From contig JAHEZM010000004.1 of NCBI GenBank assembly GCA_023251075.1, positions 124,001-188,000 of the forward strand: a stretch of 64,000 nt of DNA. The letters are read 5' to 3'. Shown here piece by piece: positions 5,342-64,000 of the stretch. Within the stretch, counting starts at the first letter, position 1; each line of letters starts with the position of its first letter. Under the pieces are notes generated by a model that did no database searches, had not been told where the DNA came from, and saw only the letters and a list, made by a program, of their open reading frames with translations. Source of the DNA: Flavobacteriales bacterium (GTDB lineage: Bacteria; Bacteroidota; Bacteroidia; Flavobacteriales_C; GCA-002722245). The position numbers and the translations under genes were made by a program.

Positions 5342-7066
5342 ATGAATAAATTAATTCTTTTCATTTTAAGTTCATTGTTCACGATGAATATTTATGCAGG
5401 TAAAAGCAGTGGAGATCCTTTTTTAATGGGATCTGCAGCACAGGTTCGTGCTGGATTGATACAGCATAACGGACAACTGCAGATAGGCCTTTCCCAATCA
5501 TTTACTATGAATATTACTTTGCAATCGGAAACTAAAATTAGTGGAACATTGGCGGGTTATCCTGATTCGAAATTTTTTATTCATACTACTGATCAGTTTA
5601 CTGAAGGGTATGTTATAGTATCTAAAGAAAATGATATTGCTTATAAGTATATCACGAATGAAAATAATGAAGTATATCTTCAGCCTACTTCTATTAATGA
5701 TATTATTTGTGTGGATTATAGAAAGGTTAATAACACAAGTATAGTGGAGAAACAGGTTAATTCACAAAAAGAAATTCCCAAAATAGCCAACGGTCCTGTT
5801 CCGGTATTAAACAGCGACGTAAACGCAACCAATGTGCTTTATCTTGATTTTGATGGATATTCTTTACCGGCAGGAACAGTATGGAGCGATGTGGCTGTAG
5901 ATGCGAAACCAGCAGGTTATAGCAACGCACAGATTTTCATGGCCTGGAGCATTATAGCTGAGGATTATTCTCCTTTTAATGTAAATGTAACAACTAGTGA
6001 AACAGTGTTTAACAATACGCCAACGAATAAAAAGATGCGCTTGGTATATACTCCTACCGATTGGTATCCAAATGCAGGAGGTGTTTGTTATGTAGGTGTT
6101 TTTGATAACGGCGATAATTCAGATCCGGGTTATAAGGTGGCTTGGACATTTGTATTTGGAACAAGTAATGCTGATGTGGACGATGCAACGGAATCTGGTA
6201 CTCACGAACTAGGTCATAGTTTAGGTTTAGACCATGATGGAAGAGCATCGGCAGGTGAAGAATATTATGGCGGACACAGTGCATGGGCTCCGATCATGGG
6301 CGTTGCATACGGACAAGCTATTTCGCAATTTAGTAAAGGTGAATACGCTGATGCAAATAATACACAAGATGATTTAAGTATTATTGCGGGTTATCTTTCT
6401 TGGCGTAATGATGATCATGGAAATACACAGCTTACGGCAAGCAATATTCCTTTTACGATGCAGAATACTGTAGGTGTTGTTGATTCTGTATTCGGCACAA
6501 TTCATAATAGCGCAGATATAGATGTTTTCCAGTTTTATACCGGGGGAGGATTGGTTGATCTTACATTTAAACCTTCATATAGTGTGAAAAATGATCTCGA
6601 TATGCAGGTAACTCTGTATAATGAACAATGGCAAAGTCAAACAGTATTAACTACTCCTCATAATGCAAATATTGTTAAAGGAGTTGCATTAAAACAAACC
6701 CTACCCGCCGGAAATTATTATGTAGCCATTGATGGAATAGGCACTGGAACTCCTACCAACGGGTATAGTGATTATGCCTCTATAGGTACTTATTATATTA
6801 AAGGCACTATACCTGATCCACAGCAAACCACAGGATTGTATGATTTAGAAAAACAAAATTTCATTTCCATCTATCCTAATCCGATTGGAGAAAATAATCA
6901 ATTGAATTTCTCTTCTTCAGTAGAACAGGTAAAAGTATATGATGTAACCAGAAAGTTTTTGTTTTCTGCCCGAAATGTGAATCAGATTAGTATAGAAGAT
7001 CAGGGAGTATTTTTTGTGGAGATAACAAAAAATGAAAAAGTTATTGTTGCAAAAATAATAAGATAG
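5342..7066 (+). CDS. Secreted metzincin zinc metalloprotease with T9SS type A sorting domain
   Basis: The start is the ATG at 5342, which begins a clear signal peptide (MNKLILFILSSLF...IYA); an upstream in-frame ATG at 5318 would mask it. After a propeptide-like region of about 130 residues comes a metzincin catalytic domain. It has HELGHSLGLDHD (zinc ligands His288, His292 and His298, general base Glu289) and a later Met-turn in APIMG. A beta-sandwich of the bacterial pre-peptidase C-terminal type follows (DIDVFQFYTGGG), then a type A sorting domain from NPIGENNQLNF to the end. A longer relative with the same order lies at 10203-12704. The likely role is extracellular protein digestion. Confidence 0.88.
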   Translation: MNKLILFILSSLFTMNIYAGKSSGDPFLMGSAAQVRAGLIQHNGQLQIGLSQSFTMNITLQSETKISGTLAGYPDSKFFIHTTDQFTEGYVIVSKENDIAYKYITNENNEVYLQPTSINDIICVDYRKVNNTSIVEKQVNSQKEIPKIANGPVPVLNSDVNATNVLYLDFDGYSLPAGTVWSDVAVDAKPAGYSNAQIFMAWSIIAEDYSPFNVNVTTSETVFNNTPTNKKMRLVYTPTDWYPNAGGVCYVGVFDNGDNSDPGYKVAWTFVFGTSNADVDDATESGTHELGHSLGLDHDGRASAGEEYYGGHSAWAPIMGVAYGQAISQFSKGEYADANNTQDDLSIIAGYLSWRNDDHGNTQLTASNIPFTMQNTVGVVDSVFGTIHNSADIDVFQFYTGGGLVDLTFKPSYSVKNDLDMQVTLYNEQWQSQTVLTTPHNANIVKGVALKQTLPAGNYYVAIDGIGTGTPTNGYSDYASIGTYYIKGTIPDPQQTTGLYDLEKQNFISIYPNPIGENNQLNFSSSVEQVKVYDVTRKFLFSARNVNQISIEDQGVFFVEITKNEKVIVAKIIR

Positions 7067-56327: not shown

Positions 56328-56407
56328 AGGGTAAATCTCAGTTTCTTTAAGATTACCTTTCATTTACTAAGTTTTCAGTGTATTTTTATATCAGTTCTTT
56401 ATTCTAT

Positions 56408-56803
56408 GGGGCTGACCGGTTTTGACAGGAAGTGCAATCGGTTGGTAAGCGTGTCGAGAGTTGAAACCCCTCTCGTAAATCAAGGATTTCAAATTTTAAT
56501 TGGCGAAAATAACTACGCTCTTGCTGCTTAATCTATCTCAGATAGTTTAACTTAATTCCTGCTCTAGGAGCAGGAACAAGATGTCTCTGAAAGAAGTGCA
56601 CCTGATACTTTTTTCTTTTGAGGCACAACCGAGTTTGGGTTAGTGTTCACAACGTTTCGGTGTGAATGCGAAAATTAAGAAACTAAGTTATAAATAGGGT
56701 GCTTGTATCCGGTTTATTTCCTACAATCAATTACAAGATACACATGTAGAAAGCCATCAGGTTCCTTTTTTGGACGAGGGTTCGACTCCCTCCGGCTCCA
56801 CCA
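56408..56803 (+). ncRNA. ssrA: tmRNA
   Basis: The gene begins GGGGCTGACCGGTTTTGACAGG and ends GGGTTCGACTCCCTCC with GGCTCCACCA. The acceptor stem GGGGCTG/CGGCTCC pairs over seven positions with a G-U. The tag ORF (56502-56531) reads GGC GAA AAT AAC TAC GCT CTT GCT GCT TAA, that is GENNYALAA, fitting Bacteroidota. tmRNA rescues stalled ribosomes with SmpB. Its 3' end is the apparent attachment site of the island that follows and is overlapped antisense by the recombinase stop. Confidence 0.97.
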
Positions 56804-58364
56804 GCGCGGCATACTTGATATTTAATTCAGGTATGCCTTTTTTATTTCCTTCTATTTCCTGCATTTGGCAAGCGATACGCGCTAACACAGGATTTAAACT
56901 GCTGGTTCGACACTGATTTGTCTTTTTATCATACAGCAATCCTTCGGAAGAGATCCAAAACTGTACTCTTTGTTTGGTGACATAATCGGCAGAACCCCAA
57001 TATTCACTAATGTTTTCAGCAGAGTTTAAAAGCACATTAACGCATTCTTCCAAGTTTGACATTTTCCTGCCGGATTTCATCAAAAGCTTCTCTATTTCGG
57101 CTTTTTCTGCGTTGAAACGGTCTTTGTATTTCCTGAACATTTCTGCGCTGATTTCTTCTAAAATGAACCGCTCTTCCAAGCGTTCCAGTTTTTTGTCAAT
57201 TTCCGCGAGTTGATTTTCGCATTTAACGGCTTCATCTTCTTTCACGGTTATTCTCTCTTCATATTCGGCAATCATTTCCCGAGCAATACCATCCTTCATC
57301 TCCTCATCGTTAATATTAAATCGTTCTAAAGCGGAGCTAAAATTTTTATGCAAATCATCTGCTCTCTTATTGTTTTTACAGCCCGGCGTGTTGCACTTGT
57401 AGTAGTACAGGTTCTTTTTCTTCACCACGTAACCACGCATAAATTTAGCGCAATCCTCACAGCGCATAAATCGTTTCAAAGGAAGTTCTTTTCTTTCTTC
57501 GTTGGTTTTATACCCATGATGATTGGTACTTAAAATGCCATTTACTTCAAGGAATATTTCTCTTGACACCAATTTCTCATGATGTCCTTCCACCAATTCT
57601 CCTTCCAAAGCATTATGCGAAAGGAGTCCGCAATAAAAAGGATTCTTGAACAAAGCTGAAATAAACTGGTGAGAAACCTTTAGTCCCATTGAAGCCAATC
57701 GTTTTTTAATTTCCTCATTCGATAGTCCTTTTTCGGTTTTCCATAGAAAAGCTTTGCGCAATAATTTTCCTTTGGCGTTCACCACTATTTTTCGCTTCCC
57801 ATTTTCTTTAATGGTATCATATCCCGTTGGCGGTTTATGACACCATTCGCCGCGGAGCAGAGCTTCTTTCACTCCGCTCATGCATTTTTCCCTGCGGAGC
57901 TGATTATCATATTCACTGAAAATGAACTGGATATTTTGCTGAAGGCTGCCACTTGGTGTAGTAGAATCAGTGGGTTGTGTTACCGAAATTACGTTTACTC
58001 CCTGCGTTTTCAATTGCTCGGTGATGTAAATCGCGTTGGCTCCCGACCGTGAAAAACGGTCAACACTGTAAACAATGATGTATGAAATTTTCTGCCGACT
58101 GTTTTTTACGAAAGAAAGCATATTGTTGAATTCCTTCCGTTCATCGGTCTTTGCACTTTCATACGTTCCACCAAAATTCCCCATGATGGCGAAATTATTT
58201 TTTACGGCGTATTGCTCACAAACTTTCCGCTGGGTAGCAAGACTCATGTTGTTATCTGCTTGCTCTTTGGTAGAAACCCTAGTGTAAATCACGCAATTGT
58301 TGCTGCGGATTTTGACAGATGTTTTTCCTTTGGCGAATTGATTAAATAAAACGGTACTATTCAT
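56757..58364 (-). CDS. Large serine recombinase (site-specific integrase)
   Basis: The N-terminal resolvase domain has the catalytic Ser in VIYTRVSTKEQADNN, with VYSVDRFSRSGANAIYI and the arginine-rich helix near REKCMSGVKEAL. The recombinase domain contains KPPTGYD and KAFLWKTEKGLSNEEIKKRL. A zinc ribbon (MRCEDCAKFM to CNTPGCKNN) and a coiled coil (about 360-430) follow, as in large serine integrases. I chose the ATG at 58364, which overlaps the upstream gene as ATGA; an ATG three codons earlier is possible. The last codons (EGVEPSSKKGT) are antisense to the ssrA 3' end, so the gene abuts its own attachment site. Confidence 0.93.
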   Translation of the reverse strand: MNSTVLFNQFAKGKTSVKIRSNNCVIYTRVSTKEQADNNMSLATQRKVCEQYAVKNNFAIMGNFGGTYESAKTDERKEFNNMLSFVKNSRQKISYIIVYSVDRFSRSGANAIYITEQLKTQGVNVISVTQPTDSTTPSGSLQQNIQFIFSEYDNQLRREKCMSGVKEALLRGEWCHKPPTGYDTIKENGKRKIVVNAKGKLLRKAFLWKTEKGLSNEEIKKRLASMGLKVSHQFISALFKNPFYCGLLSHNALEGELVEGHHEKLVSREIFLEVNGILSTNHHGYKTNEERKELPLKRFMRCEDCAKFMRGYVVKKKNLYYYKCNTPGCKNNKRADDLHKNFSSALERFNINDEEMKDGIAREMIAEYEERITVKEDEAVKCENQLAEIDKKLERLEERFILEEISAEMFRKYKDRFNAEKAEIEKLLMKSGRKMSNLEECVNVLLNSAENISEYWGSADYVTKQRVQFWISSEGLLYDKKTNQCRTSSLNPVLARIACQMQEIEGNKKGIPELNIKYAALVEPEGVEPSSKKGT

Positions 58365-58624
58365 GCGGCACAATTTAAATTTTCATTTTGTTTGAGTTCT
58401 TGTTTCGGTTTTACCACTGTGTGGTAATAGTCAAAAAAGATGATGGTAAATTGGCGAAGGCTATCTATTATTTCTTTCGCCTGTTCATCATTGATTCCTT
58501 GAAACATTTTCCACGATTTTACCTGATCAACAGTAAGTCGACCAGCTTTTCTCAATTTTTCTATTTTATTCTTCATGTCCATAAAATGTTGTTTTAAATT
58601 GGGCTCGCCAATATAACCGATCAT
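58361..58624 (-). CDS. Small protein (87 aa) preceding the serine recombinase
   Basis: The protein is a predicted helical bundle with Lys-rich stretches (MDMKNKIEKLRKAGRLTVDQVKSWKMF). It shares the ATGA overlap with the recombinase start, so the two are translationally coupled. It could be a recombination directionality or accessory factor, but that is an inference from position only. No known motif is present. Confidence 0.65.
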   Translation of the reverse strand: MIGYIGEPNLKQHFMDMKNKIEKLRKAGRLTVDQVKSWKMFQGINDEQAKEIIDSLRQFTIIFFDYYHTVVKPKQELKQNENLNCAA

Positions 58625-58721
58625 GGTTGAAAGGTCTAATATTTTCAGCTATATCTGCTGCAAAAACCCATCCATTATTGGGATGTAGCGGTTTTTTCGC
58701 CCCGATTAGTAGATTTTTGTA

Positions 58722-59039
58722 TTAAAGTCCGGCAAAGAAGGGAATTAATGGTTCTTTAAATTCCTTGATCAGTGATACCAGTACAGGTGATTTTCCATCA
58801 GCTTCCAACACCTTAATTCCAATATCAAAAAGCTTCTCTATCAATTTTTCATTCCACACTCTTTTCTGATTTTGTTCTTGTTGCAGTCTTTGAATTTCAC
58901 GCTGACTTTCTTCTTGCCATTTGGTTTTTTCCTTTTCAATTTCTTCTTTTAGTTTTTTATCGAATCGATTTTTAAAAAAAGCAGTAGAATTTTCTTCTAT
59001 CACTTCAAAATAGTTTGTCTGAATAATTTGTGTAGTCAT
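58722..59039 (-). CDS. Small coiled-coil protein (105 aa), unrecognised
   Basis: Residues about 20-65 are a Lys/Glu/Gln coiled coil (KKLKEEIEKEKTKWQEESQREIQRLQQEQNQ type). The C-terminal 40 residues are more hydrophobic (VLVSLIKEFKEPLIPFFAGL). It sits 2 bases downstream of the 339-residue gene on the same strand and is probably co-transcribed. No function is known. Confidence 0.6.
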   Translation of the reverse strand: MTTQIIQTNYFEVIEENSTAFFKNRFDKKLKEEIEKEKTKWQEESQREIQRLQQEQNQKRVWNEKLIEKLFDIGIKVLEADGKSPVLVSLIKEFKEPLIPFFAGL

Positions 59040-59041
59040 GA

Positions 59042-60061
59042 TTATTGATTTTTAGGTTGGTTTTGTTGCATTGCAGATTGCGAACTTTCTAAAGCGGTTT
59101 TGGTAACATCGGGATTTTCAGCAACACAAGCCAAAAGAGAAACGATATCTTCCATTTGTTGTTTGTTGCAATTTCCTACAGCTTCTTTTATTCCATCCAG
59201 TAGTACTTTGTCTTCTTCAGAAATGATATATTGTTTTTCTTTTTGTGGATCAGTGGATGGTTTTTGTTCTTCCGGATTTTCTTTTTTTCGGAAAGTAGCA
59301 TCTGCTTGTTCGGCGGGTGTTTTTTCCGCACCGCTTAAACCAAGAGTTTTATTTGCTTTATTTCCGCTAAAGATTCCCAAAGAAGAAAGTCCAGATAACA
59401 CTACCGATTCATCCTTTCCTTTCAGTACGTCTTCAAAAAGTTGTGCAAACAATTGTTTAGCAGAGGGAGATTCTTCTGCGCTATCCAATTGCTTTTTTAT
59501 TGCTTGAATTTGTTCTATCAAGCGATCATTTTTCTCATCCAATGCTTCATATTCTTTTCTTCCCTGCTCAAAATCTTTTTCGAGTTCGGAATACTTTTTC
59601 TGCAATTCTGTGTAATCCCAATCCCTGCGGTAGTTTTTAAGTTTTTCGTCAAAATCAATTTCTTTCGATGAATTAGAATTCTCCGTTTTTATTTTTCTGT
59701 CTTGTATTCCGGAAAGTTCTTCTCTGAGCTGTCGGATTTCACGAAGCTCTCTTGATTCTTTCGGTTCTTCTTTTTTGCCATTCAATTCCAACACATGACG
59801 CGTACTTCGCCGCGATTGACCTTCGTAAAAAATGAGAGTGACCGTTCGAGTATCTTCCGTTACGAATTCTTCGTAACCGTCAAATTCTTCAAGGCTACTG
59901 GTTCTGCCAACAACTTTTAAATCATCTACACGGATTTCATACTCGATTGGTCTTCCTTTGTTGATGGCGTTTTGCAAATACTGGTACAGCACCTGAATTT
60001 TTCCATTGCTGTAGGGGCTTTTGTTGATTATCATAGGCATTATTGGTTTACGGTTTAACAT
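59042..60061 (-). CDS. Coiled-coil protein of the island (339 aa), unrecognised
   Basis: A globular N-terminal part (about 10-100, with YEIRVDDLKVVGRTSSLEEFDGYEEFVTED) is followed by a long Glu/Lys/Arg coiled coil (about 100-190). A hydrophobic patch near 205-245 (QLFEDVLKGKDESVVLSGLSSLGIF) and a Gln/Lys/Pro-rich tail follow. Start codons at 60061, 60040 and 60034 are all possible. I do not recognise the family. The product of the next gene, the 105-residue protein, is also coiled-coil, so they may form a complex. Confidence 0.6.
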   Translation of the reverse strand: MLNRKPIMPMIINKSPYSNGKIQVLYQYLQNAINKGRPIEYEIRVDDLKVVGRTSSLEEFDGYEEFVTEDTRTVTLIFYEGQSRRSTRHVLELNGKKEEPKESRELREIRQLREELSGIQDRKIKTENSNSSKEIDFDEKLKNYRRDWDYTELQKKYSELEKDFEQGRKEYEALDEKNDRLIEQIQAIKKQLDSAEESPSAKQLFAQLFEDVLKGKDESVVLSGLSSLGIFSGNKANKTLGLSGAEKTPAEQADATFRKKENPEEQKPSTDPQKEKQYIISEEDKVLLDGIKEAVGNCNKQQMEDIVSLLACVAENPDVTKTALESSQSAMQQNQPKNQ

Positions 60062-61236: not shown

Positions 61237-62733
61237 GTGAAAATATTAATAGACACCAATATTATTATCCAGTTAGAAGACAACAAAGTCATTGATAAGA
61301 ACTTTGCTGAATTTTATCAATTTGCCATTGCTAATAAATGCGAGGTTTATTATCATCCGGCGTGCGTTAAGGACATTAAACGGGATAAGGATACCAACAG
61401 ACAAGAAATCACTCTCTCCAAATTTAGTAAGTATGCTCAATTCCCTGATCCGGCAACACCAACAAAAGAGTTTATTGAAAAAGTAGGTCAGAAAAAAGAA
61501 AATGATGAAATAGATAATCTTCAACTTTTTCAAATTGTAAAAGAGTACGCCGATTTATTCATTACAGAAGATAATGGCATTATTGCGAAAGCCAATAGCT
61601 TGGAGTTGAATAAAAGTGTGCTAAAAATTGAAGAAGGACTTACGCGCTTAAAAGACCAATTTGATTTAATTGTTCCACAACACCCGTGTTTAACAGAGTG
61701 TTCCGTCAGGGAAATAGAAAGTGAATTAAATGATCCTTTTTTTGATTCTCTGCGAAGTAGTTATTCAGGATTTAACGATTGGTTTTTAACCTGCGCAAAG
61801 GAAAATCGAAAATGCTATCTTCTTAAAGTAAATAACAAAATAAGCGCTATACTGTTATATAATCAGGAAAAAGCAGAAAAACACAACCTTCCAAACATCC
61901 ATGAAGACGTACTGAAAATGTGTACGCTCAAGGTTGACGAAACGGTTTTCGGATATAGGCTCGGTGAATTATTTCTTCAAAAAGTTTTTGCTCTTTGTAT
62001 TGAGCGAAAATTAAACTACCTATATTTAACTGTATTCAAACATCACGTCCATCTCATTAAATTATTAGAAAGCTTCGGTTTTAAACAGGATGAATTCAAA
62101 AACAAAGATGGAGAGCAAGAGCTACGAATGATAAAAAGTTTAATAAAAGCGGAATATAAGTTGAATCCACAAGCAATTGCTTCACATCCCTTTTACAATG
62201 ACGCTGAAGTTGTAAATAAATTTGTAATTCCTATTCAACATCAATTTTACTCAACCTTATTTAAAGATGGGGCTTTTAGACAACCTTCCATTTTTGATGG
62301 TACAGAATTCGGGCTAAATGAAATTGAGGGCAATACTATTTCCAAAGCATACCTTTGTAAATCGAAACGAGTTTCAATGAAAGCAGGAGATTTATTGTTC
62401 TTTTATGCCTCCGGAAAATATAAAACGATTGAACCAGTTGGAATTCTTGATAAAGTGGTTTACACAAAAGACTTAGAAGAAATAACCCAATTAGTAAAAA
62501 GAAAAACGGTTTATTCAAATAAGCAATTAACAGATATGGTACTTGGCAAAAATCCCGTCACCGTTCTGATTTTTCGATTGCTCTATTATCTTAAAACGCC
62601 GATTAAATATGAGGGGATAATACAATTAGAAAGCCATTCCAATAAATTTCAAACAATAACAACGCTTTCGGAATCAGACTATATTAATCTAAAATCAAAA
62701 CAACATTTCGATGAACGTTATATTATCAATTAA
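61237..62733 (+). CDS. Three-domain PIN / GNAT / PUA-like protein
   Basis: The GTG at 61237 starts MKILIDTNIII, the classic PIN opening. The acidic residues Asp6, Asp46, Asp93 (or Asp90) and Asp112 (in FITEDNGI) fit the PIN nuclease site. Residues about 155-285 form a GNAT acetyltransferase fold with the acetyl-CoA-loop-like GYRLGE (229-234) and YLYLTVFKHHVHLIKLLESFGF. The C-terminal 170 residues (from about 330) with VSMKAGDLLFFYASGKYKTI and GILDKVV resemble EVE/ASCH PUA-like RNA-binding folds. An RNA-targeted nuclease and acetyltransferase role is inferred. The stop lies 23 bases inside the next gene. Confidence 0.72.
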   Translation: MKILIDTNIIIQLEDNKVIDKNFAEFYQFAIANKCEVYYHPACVKDIKRDKDTNRQEITLSKFSKYAQFPDPATPTKEFIEKVGQKKENDEIDNLQLFQIVKEYADLFITEDNGIIAKANSLELNKSVLKIEEGLTRLKDQFDLIVPQHPCLTECSVREIESELNDPFFDSLRSSYSGFNDWFLTCAKENRKCYLLKVNNKISAILLYNQEKAEKHNLPNIHEDVLKMCTLKVDETVFGYRLGELFLQKVFALCIERKLNYLYLTVFKHHVHLIKLLESFGFKQDEFKNKDGEQELRMIKSLIKAEYKLNPQAIASHPFYNDAEVVNKFVIPIQHQFYSTLFKDGAFRQPSIFDGTEFGLNEIEGNTISKAYLCKSKRVSMKAGDLLFFYASGKYKTIEPVGILDKVVYTKDLEEITQLVKRKTVYSNKQLTDMVLGKNPVTVLIFRLLYYLKTPIKYEGIIQLESHSNKFQTITTLSESDYINLKSKQHFDERYIIN

Positions 62734-63118
62734 ACCTCAGTACGCCAATGCAATTATTGCCGGCGAAAAGAAAGTTGAGTTTAGAAAACTTACTTTTAAA
62801 CGAGAAGTCAAAAAAGTATATATTTATTCCAGCGCACCGGAACAAAGAATAATTGGTTATTTTATTATTGAAGATATTATTTCCGATTCTCCAAAAGGGC
62901 TTTGGAAGAAATTTAAAAAAGTAGGTGTTATCAACGAAGGAGATTTCTTTGAATACTTCTCAAATAAAGAGATAGGCTATTCCATTAGAATTAAATCAGT
63001 AAAAAAATTCAGAAATCAACTTGATCCTAAGCAAATTTTCGCAGATTTTGTTCCCCCTCAGTCCTATATGTATTGTGGTGAAATTGAATCGCCAAGAATA
63101 GCGAAATCCTTTAAATAA
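62711..63118 (+). CDS. ASCH-domain (PUA-like) protein
   Basis: The 135-residue protein opens with ILSIKPQYANAIIAGEKKVEFRK, which contains the ASCH signature GxKxxExR. Strands such as KVYIYSSAPEQRIIGYFIIEDI follow. ASCH domains bind RNA or modified nucleotides. Its start lies 23 bases inside the PIN-GNAT gene, in another frame, so translation is probably coupled and the products may cooperate. Confidence 0.8.
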   Translation: MNVILSIKPQYANAIIAGEKKVEFRKLTFKREVKKVYIYSSAPEQRIIGYFIIEDIISDSPKGLWKKFKKVGVINEGDFFEYFSNKEIGYSIRIKSVKKFRNQLDPKQIFADFVPPQSYMYCGEIESPRIAKSFK

Positions 63119-63263: not shown

Positions 63264-64000
63264 TTACAATAATTTTTTTCTCTCAAATCGCTCCCGTGCT
63301 TCAAGCAGAGCAATATGTAGTTTTTTCTCTAGTTCTTTTTTAGGAGGTAATTCTGTCCAATATTCAGCAACCATAATTCCGTCCTTGTGCATTTCCAATA
63401 ATTCTATTTGCTCTCGGCTGCTTTCAGCACAAAGTATCAATCCTATTGGAGTTTCTTCTCCTTCTTTTCTTTCGTTTTTATTCAGCCATTTTAAATACAA
63501 CTCCATTTGCCCTTTGTGTTTTGCCTGAAATTTGCCCAATTTTAATTCTATTGCAACCAATCTTTTTAAGCCACGATGATAAAACAACAGATCCAAAGAG
63601 AAATCTTCTCCATCTATTATCATTCTTTTTTGCCGCTCCACGAAAGCAAATCCTTTGCCTAATTCCAAAATAAAACTCTCTAATTCACGAAGTATAGCTT
63701 GTTCTACATCGGCTTCGAGATAAGTGTCTTTCAAACCCAAGAAATCCAGAAAATAGGGATCTTTAAAAATGCCGCTGCTATCCGTTGCTGCTTTTTGTAA
63801 TTGTAAATCAGCGATAGAAGTTCGTTCATAAGCTTTGCGTTCTATGTTTTTTCGTAGATCTCTAACGCCCCACGCTTCCATTGCTGCTTTTTCAGCGTAG
63901 AACAATTTTGCCTCCTGTTTTTTAACGGGTAACAAAGCCAAAAAATGCGACCAGCTCAATTGTCGTGACAGTGTCACGACTTTCTCCACAACAGTAAATT
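63264..64000 (-). CDS. YhcG/DUF1016-family PDDEXK nuclease domain protein (5' end beyond window)
   Basis: The frame stays open past a GTG at 63989 to the window edge, so the N-terminal part is missing. It starts in the DUF1016 N-terminal helical region (LSRQLSWSHFLALL) and runs into a PDDEXK nuclease-like fold. The visible catalytic elements are DGEDFSLDLLFYH and VAIELKLGKFQAKHKGQM, with the Asp and ExK motif kept. Full-length family members are about 340 residues. These proteins are common in defence islands and near restriction systems. Its partner genes lie beyond the edge. Confidence 0.85.
   Translation of the reverse strand, partial: FTVVEKVVTLSRQLSWSHFLALLPVKKQEAKLFYAEKAAMEAWGVRDLRKNIERKAYERTSIADLQLQKAATDSSGIFKDPYFLDFLGLKDTYLEADVEQAILRELESFILELGKGFAFVERQKRMIIDGEDFSLDLLFYHRGLKRLVAIELKLGKFQAKHKGQMELYLKWLNKNERKEGEETPIGLILCAESSREQIELLEMHKDGIMVAEYWTELPPKKELEKKLHIALLEARERFERKKLL

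Follow-up and report, generated by a model that had tools for sequence, protein, structure and literature searches.

What is a large serine recombinase (LSR) doing at the 3′ end of an intact RNA gene, and why does its own reading frame end inside that gene? The question is raised by a stretch of 64,000 nucleotides (the window) from a Flavobacteriales bacterium (assembly GCA_023251075.1; 3.28 Mb, 45 contigs), which corresponds to positions 124001-188000 of contig C44 (JAHEZM010000004.1). The only transfer-messenger RNA (tmRNA) gene of the window, ssrA, lies at 56408-56803 on the plus strand, carries the tag GENNYALAA and was found complete over its full length by ARAGORN. Converging on it from the minus strand is an LSR gene (56757-58364), which encodes an integrase of 535 aa. 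A first-pass annotation had read this region as a serine recombinase island inserted against an intact ssrA, the 3′ end of which the element was thought to restore, with a second copy marking the right end of the island. This reading was partly supported. The LSR at the junction and the intact tmRNA were both borne out, and the LSR stop codon even lies inside ssrA, meaning that the two genes overlap rather than merely abut; the restoration of the ssrA 3′ end with a second copy was not.

We propose that this integrase belongs to a group of Bacteroidota LSRs specialised for tRNA and tmRNA genes, which would use the T-loop as a landmark and exchange the terminator of the RNA gene for one of their own. 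We place the probability of this reading at roughly 0.84, and the window region very probably represents attL, the left end of a mobile island that carries defence-type cargo and is inserted at the ssrA 3′ end.

The window integrase and its overlap with ssrA

The window protein has the domain order of the LSR class. A catalytic Resolvase domain (PF00239, E 2.8e-28) is followed by a Recombinase domain (PF07508, E 5.8e-10) and a zinc ribbon (PF13408), which at 23.1 bits scores slightly below the Pfam cut-off of 25.3 bits, although its Cys pairs align. A search by sequence in the PDB gave matches confined to the catalytic part, such as the TP901-1 integrase. Translation was taken from the ATG at 58364; an alternative in-frame TTG at 58373 (open reading frame (ORF) 56757-58373, minus strand) would give 538 aa. 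The final 47 nt of the ORF (56757-56803, minus strand) are antisense ssrA, and it is from them that the integrated protein takes its tail, stop codon included (...ALVEPEGVEPSSKKGT).

Recurrence at many tRNA genes

A scan of bacterial genomes gave 222 relatives of the integrase, of which we analysed the best 80 (44-68% identical over the best segment). Nearly all of the named ones are Bacteroidota. In 46 of the 80, the LSR reading frame stops within a tRNA, and in three within a tmRNA; four more relatives (L028, L040, L066 and L083) read completely through a tRNA, bringing to 53 those that overlap an intact tRNA or tmRNA. Six others run off the contig, and the remaining 21 comprise tRNA fragments, arms of the attP site, non-tRNA sites and LSRs of another kind. 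The targets of the 49 loci with an internal stop codon were tRNA-Met (15), Phe (8), Ala (7), Arg (5), Glu (4), Val (4), tmRNA (3), Ser (2) and Thr (1). The island at ssrA is not a one-off case: the same arrangement is found at many tRNA types.

Changes of target appear to be frequent. Two integrases that are 98.2% identical over 500 residues are inserted one at tRNA-Met and the other at tRNA-Arg, and further pairs at different targets share 95.0% (Ala and Phe) and 94.4% identity (tmRNA and tRNA-Arg). A tree of 53 tips requires at least 28 target changes, bearing in mind that this is a quick tree with SH-aLRT support only and several long branches. That nearly the same integrase uses many tRNAs would be explained by the wide conservation of the T-loop.

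The arrangement was also met in a separate draw of 395 genomes, 21 of which (own genome included) matched with E 1e-40 or below; as few candidates were scored per genome, this number is a minimum. This draw yielded 29 loci of 24-57% identity, 28 from other genomes plus a second LSR of the window's own genome. Among these, 23 are at a tRNA and six are not at a tRNA visible to ARAGORN; GTTCGA lies exactly 125 bp from the T-loop position in 20 of the 23. The second LSR of the same genome (L113, contig C24, 9464-10993) overlaps a tRNA-Asn and is 28% identical to that of the window; the match contains one internal stop. No relative of the integrase was found on viral contigs, and every match among plasmid and phage records was below 60% identity, those listed being at 21-29%. 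Two relatives, L056 and L062, occupy non-tRNA insertion sites that have GTTCGG at the attB distance, and similar GGTTCGGCG words occur several times in the flank of L056, where they may mark an alternative target.

Position of the crossover and exchange of the terminator

The element side was fetched for 12 relatives, over 16-80 kb each, and an attP arm was located in six. Counted from the G of GTTCGA (or the A of ATTCGA in G013), these arms span 29 nt, up to and including a CCA-like triplet, and a terminator follows. Core-to-core distances were 12.3 kb (G013), 18.8 kb (G014), 33.5 kb (G023), 44.7 kb (G010), 52.4 kb (G017) and 71.2 kb (G019); in G013 the arm precedes the end of another LSR, forming a tandem. 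With both ends located, these six relatives put the crossover at tRNA positions 73-74 or directly beside them, leaving the RNA body intact. The dinucleotide at these positions matches between target and arm in 6/6 cases (AC in five, TC at tRNA-Thr), an agreement that is partly by construction, since the scans required AC, or C alone in the relaxed scan that found all six. The corresponding AC in the window, at 56800-56801 (plus strand), is the putative crossover dinucleotide, as suggested by these relatives and by an empty site.

The empty site is found in Adhaeribacter terrigena (G017). This genome has a second tRNA-Thr, 2.4 kb away, which is unoccupied, ends GGGGGCTC and carries the exact terminator that stands after GGGGCTC at the attR of the element. 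Thus attB is GGGGGCTC plus the terminator, attR is GGGGCTC plus the same terminator, and attL is GGGGGCTC plus the integrase.

A strong hairpin with a T run directly after the RNA end, inside the LSR gene, is present in 53 of the 54 relatives examined, with a median of -21.3 kcal/mol against -5.0 kcal/mol in control windows. In the window itself, the putative element-supplied terminator of ssrA lies within the integrase ORF, at 56808-56843 (plus strand), and consists of a hairpin of -17.7 kcal/mol followed by TTTTTT. A terminator also follows the arm at the far ends of G010 and G019. Judging from these junctions, the part replaced upon insertion is the terminator and not the RNA.

A classical integration of the tRNA type would differ in having its crossover in the T-loop or T-arm, an attP that carries the 3′ half of ssrA, and a duplicate of that half at the right end. 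A crossover in the T-loop was indeed entertained, prompted by tRNA 3′ fragments that begin near GGTTCGA or GGTTCAA and stand directly before the integrase in L026, L033, L036, L044, L057 and L095. Just past the fragment, however, L044 and L057 each show a complete tRNA-Ala together with a small GIY-YIG-like ORF, and a comparable frame is present in L095; later insertions into the same tRNA would explain at least these fragments better. In addition, no second 3′ half of a tRNA or tmRNA was found on the element side of the 12 relatives over the 16-80 kb followed, where the best ungapped matches reached only 14-17 of 23-26 letters (no shuffled control accompanies these figures). The far ends bear a motif at 25-bp spacing that is not a tRNA fragment, and the empty tRNA-Thr puts the crossover at GGGGCTC. 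A T-loop crossover was dropped on these grounds, and we regard classical integration as very unlikely.

The window's own genome agrees with this. A second copy of the ssrA 3′ end, GGGTTCGACTCCCTCC, which the first-pass annotation had expected downstream, was not found in the genome: the window has one exact match and one with 3 mismatches, and the 8 matches with 1-2 mismatches in the rest of the genome are all in tRNA genes. With the crossover of the relatives falling at or beside positions 73-74, where the gene ends, no such duplication is expected; a copy inside a gap of the assembly is still conceivable. Direct repeats of at least 12 nt within 10 kb of the junction, searched at 80 loci, were only scattered words of 12-13 nt, mostly of low complexity.

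Other insertions also left traces near such ends. Locus L223 (G011, contig C2) has two tandem attP arms within 150 bp, each followed by a terminator, which on their sequence are scars of successive insertions. A small GIY-YIG ORF (Pfam E 7.3e-14) follows the displaced terminator in G010 (C44 near 75.4 kb), and the GIY-YIG-like ORFs after the intact tRNA-Ala, at 11599-11850 in L044 and 11625-11957 in L057 (both minus strand), were named by eye. These small ORFs may represent a different type of small element that likewise targets the 3′ ends of tRNA genes.

Spacing of the T-loop motif

In the relatives, the distance from GTTCGA to the crossover is 20 bp in attB and 25 bp in attP. Scanning outside RNA genes for GTTCGA or ATTCGA followed by AC and a strong terminator gave 16 sites at spacing 25, against 0-7 for any other spacing in the range 15-40, in a sequence set that includes a few loci fetched because of such an arm. 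An offset of the same size is known from LSR binding sites: in the A118/Listeria LSR model (Rutherford et al. 2013, PMC3783163), the zinc-ribbon motif sits 5 bp closer to the centre in attB than it does in attP. By analogy, the T-loop GTTCGA (56780-56785 in the window, plus strand, 20 bp before the crossover) may be the zinc-ribbon (ZD) motif of the attB half-site, and the 5-bp shift found in relatives may distinguish attP from attB.

Motifs hidden in integrase codons

The same word recurs within the integrase gene. In the window, a GTTCGA at 56905-56910 (plus strand), spelled by C-R-T codons, lies exactly 125 bp from the T-loop motif, and a degenerate GTTTGA in S-N codons lies at 57054-57059 (plus strand), 274 bp from it, where most relatives have GTTCGA. 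Among 78 aligned integrases, CGA is used at the Arg site in 69/69, while it makes up 13% of Arg codons overall; at the Ser-Asn site, TCG is used in 69/74 and AAC in 74/74. Both sites spell GTTCGA on the ssrA strand, and they are 149 bp apart in 76/76. In a set of 29 representatives below 70% identity, GTTCGA at +125 and at +274 were the top two conserved 6-mers of 1420 offsets (26/29 and 25/29). The CGA codon is kept in 38 of 43 clusters. Five relatives (L085, L086, L090, L098 and L104) have neither internal motif, and none of them overlaps a tRNA.

Measured from the first internal motif, such a word is next met after 125 bp in 55 of 68 loci. The distance is 130 bp in exactly three loci, those that border an attP arm, and 131 bp in an LSR remnant on contig C29, described below. 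The internal motifs may bind the integrase as accessory or regulatory sites, as their conservation suggests. To our knowledge, LSRs generally need no accessory sites.

This spacing also bears on the possibility that the integrase is a fixed passenger, brought beside ssrA by some other event, with the overlap reflecting read-through of a decaying 3′ end and no site specificity. Tails do vary between targets, and some copies are decayed, as seen in the C29 remnant and in matches with stops. A passenger of this sort, however, fits poorly with an internal motif whose distance from the T-loop is precisely 125 bp in 46 of 48 loci, and with occupied and empty tRNA-Thr genes in one genome, the empty one bearing the attR terminator. 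We consider it the least probable of the explanations weighed here, and extremely unlikely.

More distant LSRs are found at ssrA in the same family. Loci L117-L120 of genomes G002, G006, G007 and G008 hold other LSRs, 28-32% identical to that of the window. These have the same 125-bp spacing and, in addition, a 49-bp inverted pair of GTTCGA, one copy of which is mismatched in G006.

The integrase tail

The integrase frame crosses the crossover. Once integrated, its tail ends in the antisense of the RNA gene, typically as ...GIEPxx; in the reconstructed attP circles (6/6), the frame continues into a recurrent SN tail of about the form SNFxxDLxxL, such as ALVEGNGKMSNFLADLKSVLNFDLCC. All 17 collected attP arms stay free of stop codons in the integrase frame for 10-24 codons, whereas in the other two frames a stop falls within 8 codons in 26 of 34 cases. 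The arms were partly chosen for an open tail; 15 of the 16 sites at spacing 25, picked before that filter, are open as well. An AlphaFold2 model of L045, an integrase that reads into an attP arm, shows the tail as a helix at low confidence (pLDDT about 50-65, pTM 0.39), which is only a hint. The tail may also differ in function between the circle and the integrated state.

The relatives support a model in which the integrase recombines attP with the RNA gene at or next to positions 73-74, with AC as the presumed crossover dinucleotide, and keeps the RNA body whole. In this model the host terminator is shifted to the far end of the element, and the terminator in the integrase 3′ coding region substitutes for it. 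The T-loop GTTCGA, at 20 bp (attB) and 25 bp (attP) from the crossover, is the main landmark common to target and attP. The tail would be read from the attP arm while the element is a circle, and from antisense ssrA once it is integrated.

A more far-reaching claim, which we advance tentatively and think rather improbable as a whole, is that these integrases sense their own integration state through their own sequence. Here attP would be a compound site in which GTTCGA stands three times at fixed spacing, in the arm and at +130 and +279; the latter two, concealed in integrase codons, would act as res-like accessory sites. The arm would encode a functional C-terminal helix, and its replacement by an antisense-tRNA peptide would turn the integrating form into the resident form, while any tRNA T-loop could serve as target.

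To a plainer account we give somewhat less than even odds: insertion would occur as proposed, but the change of tail would be a by-product of where attP is placed, and the internal motifs would serve something else, such as another regulator. The substitution test reported below does not support selection on the tail, the internal GTTCGA motifs are known from sequence alone, and the 49-bp inverted pair in the LSRs of 28-32% identity would also suit an operator. This account is harder to reconcile with the 17/17 arms that are open in the integrase frame while other frames are mostly closed, keeping in mind how that set was partly chosen. It also has to accommodate that the internal motif repeats the word found in the T-loop and in attP, that CGA is kept across most clusters, and that the relatives lacking both motifs do not overlap tRNAs.

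A probable right end of the window element

Contig C44 stops 8.4 kb past the window, and the right end of the element is probably not on it. The sole match in the genome to the attP arm pattern of the lineage is on contig C29, at 6735-6763. This arm is on the correct strand and near the contig start, has the dinucleotide AC and an in-frame tail, and stands downstream of RND-type efflux genes with heavy-metal-binding domains. When the window is joined to it, the integrase frame likewise runs into an alternative tail. The arm is followed by what is left of the 3′ end of a related LSR, with 77% identity across 142 bp (C29, 6735-6901 including the arm; L022). Taken together, its sequence features suggest that the C29 arm is probably the right end of the window element, standing before an older insertion. 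If C29 and C44 are truly joined, the element is at least 22 kb long, carries RND-type efflux genes and stands before an older LSR copy. Gene order on C29, compared with that around ssrA in the genus, was uninformative, as the flanks are on separate contigs.

Observations that weigh against the proposed insertion

Several observations count against the reading of these loci as a T-loop-guided, terminator-exchanging group. All evidence is computational. For the window element, C44 probably does not carry the right end, and we infer rather than observe the joining of C29 to C44. No empty ssrA was found within the same genus: the gene is occupied by another LSR in G006, G007 and G008 and is at the contig edge in G009. 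In the sister genus, G003 and G004 have an ssrA-like sequence without an adjacent LSR, too distant for junction mapping.

For the relatives, no attP arm was found within the 16-80 kb followed in G015, G016, G018, G022, G028 and G030, and no relative with an empty site spanning the junctions was found for G010 (59 genomes) or G019 (57 genomes). At three loci (L032, L039 and L051), both the tRNA and the motif are missing from the position where they would be expected. The exact inverted partner TCGAAC is absent from +3 to +124 from the T-loop motif in 49/49 loci, a test of the exact word that leaves room for a degenerate inverted motif. A zinc-ribbon motif in both half-sites was therefore not seen as an exact word, which speaks against a fully conventional two-sided site. 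Finally, synonymous and non-synonymous codon differences in the tail of three close pairs were 2/6, 2/6 and 1/3, and do not support purifying selection on the attP tail at the protein level.

Neighbouring genes and cargo

Directly upstream of the integrase are small ORFs of 87, 105 and 339 aa (58361-60061, minus strand). The 87-aa ORF (58361-58624, minus strand) overlaps the integrase start and is a candidate directionality factor or regulator; such a factor could be any of the three. They are poorly conserved, with matches at 1/80, 0/80 and 3/80 loci for the 87-, 105- and 339-aa ORFs, respectively, and a conserved helper gene beside the integrase was rejected on this basis.

The start of the cargo occupies the window from 60325 to its edge at 64000. 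It begins with an ORF of unknown function, followed by a PDC-M11A candidate defence protein (61237-62733), an ASCH ORF (62711-63118) and a DUF1016/PDC-S02 nuclease (63264-63998), which continues past the window edge. Type I restriction-modification genes follow on C44, and an AAA ATPase is also among the cargo. No tyrosine integrase was found to the right of ssrA in the 8 ORFs compared with Pfam or the 10 compared with NCBIfam and PADLOC, some of them beyond the window, in an element that is incomplete on this contig. Likewise, the seven neighbouring ORFs scanned hold no second resolvase domain, as a companion small serine recombinase like DsiA would.

Relation to known systems

The closest parallel is provided by the DsiB islands at ssrA of Dehalococcoides (McMurdie et al. 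2011, PMC3146451). These share a serine integrase of about 540 aa at ssrA, tandem islands, and an integrase 3′ end that overlaps attL and reads into ssrA, as is also the case in the window. Its authors speculate that dsiB is perhaps fully functional only on the circularized element. In contrast, that study describes insertion in the T-loop, a 20-bp ssrA direct repeat at the boundaries, specificity for ssrA and a second small recombinase, DsiA. A 3′ repeat of this kind was found neither in the window's genome nor in the 12 relatives followed, and the crossover in G017 is at GGGGCTC instead of the T-loop. The group described here would cross over at or next to positions 73-74, with no RNA duplication found, the terminator swapped, many tRNAs as targets and the circle tail identified.

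The A118 model (PMC3783163) matches in the layout of resolvase, recombinase, zinc-ribbon and coiled-coil, as well as in the 5-bp motif shift. It differs in that both half-sites carry the motif, while the window group has it in one half-site only, namely the T-loop; the word tRNA is absent from its main text. Meanwhile, tyrosine-integrase islands at tRNA and tmRNA genes, as catalogued by Islander (PMC4383910), resemble the window island in the kind of target and in the RNA gene that stays intact after insertion. Those elements employ an unrelated enzyme and restore the gene with a tRNA fragment, whereas ours carry a terminator and no tRNA fragment was found. The Islander paper states that serine integrases were not known to target tRNA genes, and Islander restricted its integrases to tyrosine ones.

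The window protein also matches the LSR relatives CcrB and CcrC (SCC) and XisF in NCBIfam, far below the cut-offs (65.2 vs 900, 39.8 vs 900 and 107.6 vs 375 bits, respectively); with 65.2 bits for CcrB, membership of SCC was rejected. In a review of integrative mobilizable elements, the part available to us names tRNA targets for tyrosine enzymes alone. The arrangement is not described in the accessible portions of two recent island and integrase resources, and the open-licence literature searched gave, in the texts available, no description of tRNA-wide LSRs, terminator swaps or hidden motifs.

Implications

Our findings point to a large group of bacterial mobile elements, apparently undescribed so far, with a serine integrase that seems to be guided by the T-loop of tRNA and tmRNA genes. 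They break the working rule of island finders that tRNA genes are the territory of tyrosine integrases. Since no tRNA fragment was found at the far end of the elements followed, tools that seek such a fragment could miss them. The integrase appears to change its own protein tail at each insertion. Questions of LSR directionality become testable through the terminator swap, through the tail switch and through the words embedded in integrase codons. The shared GTTCGA suggests that the target of an LSR may be set by a widely conserved sequence, in which case integration could be possible in many bacteria without an engineered landing site.

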